A stretch of 64,000 nucleotides of DNA, from positions 22,126,939-22,190,938 of the forward strand of contig NC_053413.1 of the NCBI RefSeq assembly GCF_016859285.1, given 5' to 3'. The translations under genes and the position numbers were made by a program. Below the pieces are notes generated by a model, which was not told the origin of the DNA, searched no databases, and was given only the letters and a program-made list of their open reading frames with translations. Within the stretch, counting starts at the first letter, position 1, and each line of letters opens with the position of its first letter. The stretch comes from Xiphias gladius. Lineage: Eukaryota; Chordata; Actinopteri; Istiophoriformes; Xiphiidae. Positions 7,961-10,900 of the stretch are shown in pieces.

Positions 7961-10900
7961 ATGAACCGCTACACCACTCTGAAGCAGCTGGGGGATGGCA
8001 CATATGGCAGCGTGCTCCTGGGCAAGAGCAATGAGACCGGGGAGCTGGTGGCCATAAAGAGGTGAGTTTAGCTGCAGTAAACATGCAAGGGACACACTGT
8101 ATTGTTTTGTCTCAGTGTTAAGCTGATTAAACCCTGAGTGGCTGCAAGGTGCTTTGAGGCTCTGGACTCATCATGTTGCGTTCTCACATGGCACACATTA
8201 ATAAAAGAACAGATTGTGATTAAAAATGTTGGCATTTTAAGTCAAATGTTTTACCTTTGTTTGCATCATGTGTAGCTGCCTTTGCAGCTCTTGAAATAAC
8301 AAAGTTTAGGATAATTGAAGATCAGCAGATGTAGGTTTCTTGTCAAAGCACAGGTACTGTTGCTAGTATTTTTGTTCTGTTAAATATATGGCCTACATAG
8401 GTCATTTATCTAATGATGAATCTGTCTTTGGCAAGAAATGAATAATGAACGTTTTACGAGGCTCCACCAGGCACAGTTTGTAAATGTAAGGTTACAGTGC
8501 AAGCTGATACTACTGATGACAGTGAAAGGAGTGGAAATACACCACTCAGTGTTGCCCTTAGAGTATGGGAAAGGTTTTCTGAAAGCCATTTGTGGTAAGA
8601 ACAATAAGGTTACAACAAGTATGAAATATATCAATAAAGTTTATTTGCTTTAGGATGCTATTTTTGTTACGTAAATATTTAACAGTAGTGTGGTAGTTTC
8701 AATGTGTAGCCAATATTCAATGTATTTTGTGGCTTTTATATTAAAATTAAAATGAGTATAAACGCATACAAATAAAAGCAGGAAGATACCAGGGATCTTT
8801 GTTGCGTGTCATACCTCTCCCCATATTTTTATCATATCCGTAGCCTGTCTGTATCTCTAACGTCAAGTGTCCAATAAAGGCAAAAATGCCAAAACAAAAT
8901 ACCTTTTGTTATAAATACCTACCAGTCACTAAAGAAACAAGTCAGAAGACTTGGTATGACATAAATTCTGGGCATCAATGTTCTTCAAACCTTAAAATTT
9001 TTTTTATTTTTATTTTAGTTTCCTACAAGTGTCAAATCATACAGTAAAGACAGTATGTACAGTTTTACTATATTTAAGTCTAAACAATAACATAATCATG
9101 AAAATCTTGTCTTTCAACAGGATGAAGAGGAAGTTTTATTCTTGGGATGAGTGCTTGAATCTGAGGGAGGTGAAGGTGAGACTCATTATAGCCATTACAC
9201 ATTATACTGTTTAATCAATCAATAAATCAATAAATTAACTACTTTTTTCATTAGCATTTTAAACCACCAATAATTCAACATGCAAAATCCAGCTTTTGGT
9301 TTTGCAATATACCTCTGGCTTTAACAATAACTTATATACAGTAAGAATTGTGGACCCAGCTACTCATAATTAGGAAGCGATATGTATTCGCCCATACTGA
9401 ATTATTTCCACCATATACAAAGAAGAGATATACACATATATAGATAAAGATTTGGGGTAATAAAAGAAAAACTAGAATTAGTCCTCGTCCTGACTGTGGT
9501 CCTAACTTGGCTTTGTTTGCCAGACACTGAAAACCTGACAATAAATGAGGAAGATATCAACTTCAATGTTCTTGTCATTTTGAGTCTTGTTGCACTCCAT
9601 GAGAAATTACATTACTTGATCCATTGCAGAGTTAGTGGGCATGTTTTAAATGAACTCATCAGCCTGTAGATAAAAAATACTGACAATGTGTAGTGCGACA
9701 AATTATTTTGGCAGCTTTAACTACTGTTGGCATGTGAAGTTTTTGTACAGAAGCCTTTGGCAGCTGAGTGAAAGAGCAAGTTCTGCATTATGGTATGGTC
9801 GGGCATTCGAGCTAATTTACTGAGATGACGAGGGGACTTTTAATGACTCTATTTAATGATTCTGTTGTATGTGTTTCTTAAATACTTTGTGTTATTAGTC
9901 TCTGAAGAAGCTGAACCATGCCAATGTGGTGAAACTGAAGGAAGTCATCAGGGAAAATGACTATCTCTACTTTGTCTTTGAGTACATGAAAGAAAACCTC
10001 TATCAGCTCATGAAAGGAAGGTAAGAACACATCAGACACCAAAGTTACTTGTGCATTTATATGTTATTTCAGTTATGTGCACAGAGTTTTTTTTGTGATA
10101 TAATCCTGCAATGTGTTTTTTTTATTAACATTTGGAATGTGAGAATTTTTTGCGGGTCAGCTTCAGTCATAATGTGTCAGTCTTCGTTTTTGCAGAAACA
10201 AGTTGTTCCCTGAGTCAGTCGTCAGAAACATGGCATTTCAGATATTACAGGGACTGTCCTTTATTCACAAACATGGTAGGTGATTTCAGCAAGGCCTGTC
10301 AGTACAGATAGAAGAAAAACTGACACTGCTGTCTTTTCCTCTTCTATAAAACGCTGTGTTTTCAAGCTGTCAGCCCTGTCTTGGTGTACACATTTAATTG
10401 ACTAAACAGAAAACAGCATATGTAAAACCCGAAAAGTATATAAATGCTGGACGGTTGATAAGACATCAGGCATCTCAGGATTTTCTCCAACCAAAAATAA
10501 CTCACTTCTCTGGGTTGCTCTGGTGAGAAGAGGTGTGAGTGGTTACCGAAACCTAACTGAACAAAGTTTTGCCTCTCAGAAAAAAAAAGGAAAACAAATC
10601 AACACTGTTTTTAATGCATGTTGGTGTTATTCCCACCTCAATAAGGCACGATTGTTTGCATAGTCTATTTTCCTTTATCCCCTCTTTCTTTCTTTTGTCT
10701 TTTACCACTTTGCTGCTGCCAGGGAAGATACGATGTTTTCTGAAAATGAGATAAGGAACATTCTGTTCCAAGTATTGTCTGGCTTAGCATTTGTGCATAA
10801 GCACGGTAAGAGACTCCTCCTGTCTTTATCTTTTCCTTTCCATTTCCTTAAACACTTTGTTTGACTGTGATTTATCAGGTTAAAGCATTTTTTTTGTCAG

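Follow-up and report, generated by a model that had tools for sequence, protein, structure and literature searches.

Tandem kinase-domain exons in a teleost mak gene, probably used one at a time and possibly exchanging a docking surface

The window analysed here, a stretch of 64 kb of genomic DNA (C14:22126939-22190938), carries on its forward strand a mak gene with coding sequence from position 7961 to a C-terminal frame near 17932 (Table 1). The gene model covers coding exons 1-8 and the C-terminal frame, whose exon border is approximate. The traits of an RCK kinase are present, namely a CMGC kinase domain, the TDY motif (at residue 157 with exon 4a and 158 with exon 4b) and a C-terminus that is matched by that of a paralogue on C5 and that we take to be of the MAK type. 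The X-box-like sequence GTTGCCTAGGAGAC (5616-5629, forward strand), some 2.3 kb ahead of the mak start codon, resembles the RFX X-box consensus; as a pattern composed after the site had been seen, it has one match against 0.01 expected. Such a site would be in keeping with a ciliary promoter and a 5' UTR exon far upstream of mak. Head to head with mak, a Gs/olf-alpha-like (gnal) first exon with a long glycine-coding run (proline on the opposite strand) is found on the reverse strand (3002-3682). A Pfam scan of this frame returned no family, and its weak phmmer matches in the PDB comprise six distinct sequences, all of them Gs or Golf alpha (E 0.0013-0.009). Further along, the window contains a WD40-like frame (24538-24882, reverse strand; WD40 E 0.00023, below the Pfam cut-off) that is presumably pak1ip1, a DDE_3 transposase remnant (37787-38161, reverse strand) and a CC2D1-type DM14 domain (42352-42810, forward strand) with a paralogue on C15.

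Table 1. Positions of the mak coding segments and of the candidate splicing signals in the window.
Feature	Position	Strand	Remarks
mak coding exon 1	7961..8061	+	ATG; glycine-rich loop to AIKR
mak coding exon 2	9121..9175	+	
mak coding exon 3	9899..10020	+	phase 2 at end; upstream partner common to 4a and 4b
mak exon 4a	10196..10275	+	80 nt; canonical FPES type; 26 internal residues between edge residues R and G
TGCATG	10615..10620	+	108 nt upstream of 4b; counterpart in C5 paralogue at -94
Pyrimidine-rich tract before 4b	10663..10722	+	82% C/T in 60 nt; UCUU-rich, PTB-like
mak exon 4b	10723..10805	+	83 nt; tandem homologue of 4a with one additional codon; 27 internal residues between edge residues R and G
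mak coding exon 5	11121..11253	+	HRD and DFG loops, TDY motif; downstream partner common to 4a and 4b
mak coding exon 6	11980..12151	+	
mak coding exon 7	12448..12615	+	
mak coding exon 8	13236..13556	+	end of kinase domain, start of tail
Open frame with mak C-terminus	17750..17932	+	46% over 54 residues to C-terminus of C5 paralogue

Exon 4 of the kinase domain is present in two versions, 4a and 4b, whose coordinates and lengths were given exactly in the original prediction. The splice sites are good, as had been stated, and all of the GT-AG type, with ...ttttgcag and gtaggt bordering 4a and ...gctgccag and gtaaga bordering 4b. Both exons have the same entry phase (2), an exit that matches exon 5 and no stop codon. 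With exon 3 in phase 2 at its end, 3n+2 nt are required ahead of exon 5, and both exons have such a length: the routes 3-4a-5 and 3-4b-5 are open through exon 8, while the use of both exons or of neither leads to early stops, exactly as predicted. The predicted identity of 15 of 28 residues was also recovered if the edge codons from exons 3 and 5 are included, corresponding to 13 of 26 internal codons. A tblastn search of the window with 4a returned 4b at an E value of 1e-8, and an ungapped BLOSUM62 comparison of the last 24 residues scored 88 for the pair against 33 at the next best place in the six frames of the 64 kb, so the likeness of the two exons goes beyond chance. Broken down by codon position, 15, 21 and 6 of 26 positions are identical, and 11 of the 13 identical residues are encoded by different codons, which together indicate coding conservation across saturated silent sites. 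The pair was not reported as a DNA repeat by a repeat finder run on the window, being too diverged, and the Pkinase model of Pfam scores the domain almost equally with 4a (255.8 bits) and with 4b (255.1 bits).

The features of tandem-duplicated exons are thus found together in this pair: direct neighbourhood, similar length, same phases, absence of stops, GT-AG borders and a frame break upon joint inclusion or skipping. Such a frame break is a common but not universal enforcer of mutual exclusion, and it is the sole enforcing feature demonstrated for the choice between 4a and 4b. Exclusion by U12-type sites or by steric hindrance was considered and rejected in view of the ordinary GT-AG sites and the 447 nt of intron between the exons. 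PDB searches with the 4a fragment (best 60 of 675 matches) and the 4b fragment (best 60 of 636) yielded CDKs for the most part, with no distinction between the fragments, and no MAK or CILK1 chain occurs among the best 60 of 1053 matches to the whole 4b-form kinase. Scans of other genome contigs and of viral contigs with the 4b-form kinase gave six pattern matches each, of which none was confirmed as a relative.

All gene comparisons were made between paralogues within one genome, searched in its entirety (690.8 Mb). With the mak kinase as query, 136 matches were obtained, and at two further loci, one on C5 and one on C11, the exons match individually, mostly at 70-90%. A small contig, C773, shows kinase-domain matches about every 4 kb, several with equal scores, and looks like a tandem gene array. 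For the 4b peptide, the best match after itself is C5:9160718-9160807 (87% over 30 amino acids, E 3e-10). The mak gene on C5 has the order 3-4a-4b-5, with its 4a homologue about 0.5 kb upstream of 4b, and the lengths of exons 1-3, 4b and 5-7 equal those of the window gene. The two 4b exons share 24 of 27 residues, with 24, 26 and 13 of 27 identities at the three codon positions; the maximum-likelihood estimates are 0.05 for dN and 1.6 for dS, the latter being saturated by the NG86 method. Outside exon 4, in exons 1-3 and 5-7 of the kinase, 216 of 249 residues are identical between the genes on C14 and C5, with dS values of 1.2 (LWL85), 1.7 (maximum likelihood) or 3.2 (NG86). Residues of 4b have therefore been kept while silent sites approached saturation, which indicates purifying selection on 4b in both genes; as judged from these values, it is about as strong as on the rest of the kinase. 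The original prediction had named selection of this kind among related fish as a touchstone for 4b, and between the paralogues of this one genome it is present. Exon 4a and its counterpart in the C11 gene differ by a dN of 0.14-0.16 at saturated silent sites, and both exons, 4a and 4b, are by these paralogue comparisons under purifying selection.

As assembled, exons 1-7 of the C5 gene form an open frame via 4b (834 nt, no stops), and the predicted kinase scores 244 bits with the Pkinase model. Its exon 4a (C5:9161279-9161357; reverse strand 3644-3722 of L019) is only 79 nt long and frameshifted, so that the route through it meets 11 stops. It starts with a run of ten A residues directly after the acceptor and has a core without one alphaE codon. 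This core is still identical to window 4a at 18 of 23 residues, indicating that 4a of the C5 gene either broke late or is misassembled in the A10 run. Exon 4b is apparently the sole usable exon 4 of C5 mak, unless the homopolymer represents an assembly or sequencing error, in which case this gene would keep both exons as well.

The gene on C11 possesses a single exon 4 of 80 nt and of the FPES type, flanked by introns of 119 and 102 nt, and a tblastn search of its 7.5-kb locus at E values up to 1 found no 4b outside this exon. An ELO-family gene is located 21-29 kb away, which fits an identity as cilk1, given that ELOVL5 presumably adjoins CILK1. Exon 4 of the C11 gene is identical to window 4a at 20 of 26 residues and to 4b at 15 and 16 of 26. 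Taken with the identities between the two 4b exons and between 4a and 4b of the window, this is most simply explained if 4a represents the ancestral type and 4b a derived copy. On the same comparisons, the duplication that gave rise to 4a and 4b preceded the split between the mak genes on C14 and C5.

This split likely dates to the teleost whole-genome duplication. The two intron-bearing paralogues share the same exon structure and an old silent divergence, as is typical of ohnologues. Zebrafish is reported to have one mak gene, in a block with tfap2a, tmem14ca, gcm2, elovl2, gnal and mppe1 (PMC11273301). In the present genome, the Gs/olf-alpha exon lies about 4.4 kb upstream of C14 mak, and both matches to it at E values up to 0.001 are on C14, none on C5. 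Some 15 kb past the 3' end of C5 mak, a gene identified to the level of the TF_AP-2 family occupies C5:9132100-9137177. Together with the zebrafish block containing both genes, this would be the pattern of copies from a whole-genome duplication that shared out their neighbours. Other neighbours speak against it in that they show no such pairing: CC2D1 paralogues occur on C14 and C15 and none on C5, lending no support to the pairing of C14 with C5; matches to GCM are found solely at C5:23.39 Mb, 14 Mb from C5 mak; and no ELO gene is present near either mak gene. A match between a 29-residue frame of the window (56161-56259) and C5 was rejected as evidence of synteny, since the frame is short and gives no Pfam hit. 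The surroundings of C5 mak also contain a cluster of long open frames of the retrovirus type at about 9.18-9.19 Mb (L041-L042) and runs of N of 5 to 7.5 kb (L039 1606-6605, L044 4605 to L045 2104, and L045 4605-9604), the first of which sits just past the 3' end of the C-terminal frame of C5 mak.

The intron in front of 4b offers candidates for splice control. The pyrimidine-rich tract there contrasts with C/T contents of 52-63% before the seven other exons scored and falls within the top 0.3-0.4% of 1286 background windows, and the 100 nt upstream of 4b contain seven TCTT, CTCT or TTTCT words, which is matched by 0.4% of the same windows; these background windows were overlapping and taken from 5-20 kb, and the motifs were chosen post hoc. 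The hexamer TGCATG is, we assume, an RBFOX-type motif, and PTB and RBFOX proteins are obvious splicing-regulator candidates, so that control of 4b by them would be a lead to follow. An intron alignment upstream of 4b scored 131, the best of seven exons, and was equalled by 34 of 200 shuffles; downstream of 4b, 72 of 200 shuffles scored as high. With intron alignments no better than shuffles, conserved regulation is unsupported.

The segment exchanged between 4a and 4b can be placed by comparison with MAP kinases. Exon 4 is the homologue of the MAPK segment comprising the alphaD-alphaE linker and helix alphaE, aligning to about residues 118-145 of p38alpha, the segment of which used here is an exact match to MAPK14 in the PDB. 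The location in alphaD/alphaE originally proposed is therefore right for alphaE, whereas on its N-terminal side the exon reaches just to the end of alphaD and includes the linker rather than alphaD proper. In p38alpha, the docking groove is formed by the alphaD-alphaE linker (119-134), alphaE (124-144), the beta7-beta8 loop and the CD site (PMC4370755), and movement of Cys119 is described to alter this groove, leaving the catalytic site unaffected (PMC10692146). By this alignment, 4a and 4b would exchange a partner-binding segment and have the catalytic loops in common. The 4b exons of both C14 and C5 share a signature consisting of one additional residue, MFSENE in place of LFPESV/A, QV for QI, S for Q and V for I. 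Over their first 13 residues, 4a and the C11 exon carry a net charge of +1, against -3 for 4b of C14 and -1 for 4b of C5. RCK kinases are not known to use a D-motif groove of the MAPK type. That 4b changes the docking or partner choice of mak is given slightly less than an even chance here; if the analogy applies, the swap may alter the preference for docking partners or activators rather than catalysis.

That 4b is a real exon and functional as coding sequence appears virtually certain. The original prediction went further in proposing that mak makes two kinase isoforms by using one exon at a time, and this is supported by the presence of the pair on C5, the conservation of 4b and the C5 frame that is open, as assembled, via 4b alone. 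From the sequence comparisons, we regard it as very probable that the window gene uses 4b as an alternative to 4a. A different role would be that of a poison cassette: if 4b were joined to 4a, the frameshift would lead to nonsense-mediated decay and lower mak levels, and the protein-like reading of 4b would be a leftover of the duplication. Joint inclusion indeed shifts the frame and brings stops, and joined reads are reported for 18 of 20 frame-incompatible cases in one set (PMC5740500), but a poison cassette has no reason to keep its amino acids, 24 of 27 of which have been retained at near-saturated silent sites, and the 4b route on C5 gives an open kinase as assembled. This explanation is considered very improbable. 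Somewhat less so, yet still improbable, is that 4b of the window is a vestige because the C5 gene took over its function, with the window gene using 4a alone and the time for decay having been too short. Tandem exons of the FYN family were shared out between paralogues in such a way (PMC9741552), and 4a appears broken on C5 and canonical in the window. The window 4b, however, has intact sites and no stop, and it differs from 4b of C5 by only three residues. In simulations of neutral drift, 2.9% of 4b copies stayed that close without a stop at 0.15 substitutions per site, and none of 5000 copies had at most three changes and no stop at 0.3 or more substitutions per site; any neutral period of 4b must thus have been short relative to the silent divergence.

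It is also conceivable that both exons are used and the swap is nearly neutral, the two being interchangeable packing variants of alphaE that are kept for the control of expression. Between 4a and 4b, many alphaE positions are unchanged or carry a conservative replacement, and the Pfam scores are equal. Against this, the signature of 4b (the extra residue, M, SENE, QV, S and V) has been kept in both paralogues at sites that differ from 4a and from the C11 exon; this points to selection for a distinct surface, and near-neutrality is regarded as unlikely, although far less so than the two preceding explanations. We consider it quite probable that 4a and 4b are mutually exclusive tandem exons which switch a docking surface of mak, and that the pair is older than the duplication of the gene; mutual exclusion at the RNA level in the window gene, the change of the docking surface and a regulation by tissue are what we infer beyond the observed features. 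Mechanistically, an ancient tandem duplication would have created 4a and 4b, which would be used one at a time, each completing the same kinase domain with its own version of the alphaD-alphaE linker and of helix alphaE. With one residue more, a more acidic character and FSENE instead of FPESV, the 4b form would most likely bind other partners or activators, with ATP-binding and catalytic residues unchanged between the forms. Transcripts with both exons or neither would be frameshifted, leaving one-at-a-time use as the sole source of kinase. The pair would predate the mak gene duplication, most likely the whole-genome duplication of teleosts, after which the window copy would have kept both exons and the C5 copy, as it appears, 4b alone.

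A kinase-domain exon pair in MAK or CILK1 is absent from the literature matches listed, and the main texts of two exon catalogues contain no mention of "MAK" (PMC5740500) and of "CILK1" (PMC9741552), respectively. The latter counts 236 events of tandem homologous exons in human, mostly ancient and more than 90% with teleost counterparts. For zebrafish mak, the available text on the cDNA reports two isoforms that differ only in exon 14 and describes no 4b form (PMC11273301). According to the same source, R70 is held by zebrafish exon 4; it falls in exon 3 of the window gene, so that exon 4 of the window corresponds to zebrafish exon 5. R70 and the TDY motif at 157-159 of the zebrafish protein (PMC11273301) fit an exon of the length of 4a, but the KR pair is given there as 32-33 and found at 33-34 in window mak, and because of this offset by one a 4a-length exon in zebrafish mak is only weakly indicated. 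Human MAK has a retina isoform with an added exon 12 (PMC9159943); this and zebrafish exon 14 concern the same gene as the present pair, but both are cassettes located past the kinase domain, and the text considered on the two mentions no alternative inside that domain.

The parallel with JNK1/2 and p38alpha drawn in the original prediction is right in kind, but the swapped exons of these kinases sit elsewhere in the kinase domain: the JNK segment lies after the activation segment, and the MAPK14 pair encodes another part of the C-lobe, not the docking-groove segment. JNK1 and JNK2 (MAPK8 and MAPK9) with exons 6a/6b are likewise CMGC-group kinases with alternative kinase-domain exons, and their alpha and beta forms are linked to different substrate binding (PMC8699841). 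Their swap amounts to 5-7 residues according to the same report, compared to about 27 in mak, where the linker and alphaE in front of the HRD loop are concerned, in a member of the RCK family. A homologous exon pair also occurs in a further CMGC kinase, MAPK14 (p38alpha; structures 1r39 and, from salmon, 3oht; PMC4465641). Tandem homologous kinase exons are also known from FYN (FynB/FynT), whose family paralogues each keep one of the two (PMC9741552). The FYN exons encode the SH2-kinase linker together with the N-terminal, ATP-binding portion of the tyrosine kinase domain, whereas those of mak are placed elsewhere, and unlike in the FYN family, one mak paralogue keeps both exons and the other apparently solely the derived 4b. 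The mak pair would place an exon swap of the JNK and FYN kind at another site of a kinase.

MAK and CILK1 are described as affecting cilium length, and mutation of MAK as causing retinitis pigmentosa. It is a rather doubtful proposition that a switch of docking specificity in a cilium-length kinase predates the teleost genome duplication, and perhaps even the split of MAK and CILK1, and that it was dropped or overlooked in human, with one fish mak keeping both forms after the genome duplication and the other becoming a pure 4b gene. If this is true, one and the same choice between 4a and 4b is left to splicing in one gene and settled by gene copy in the second. We are aware of little that is known about how RCK kinases choose their partners, and a naturally occurring exchange of a single surface segment that leaves the catalytic loops unchanged, along with a paralogue apparently fixed as 4b, offers a ready test system. 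More speculatively, the two forms may bear on the opposite axoneme phenotypes reported for zebrafish and mouse mak mutants (PMC11273301). Should the pair survive solely in fish, human-centred exon catalogues would miss it.
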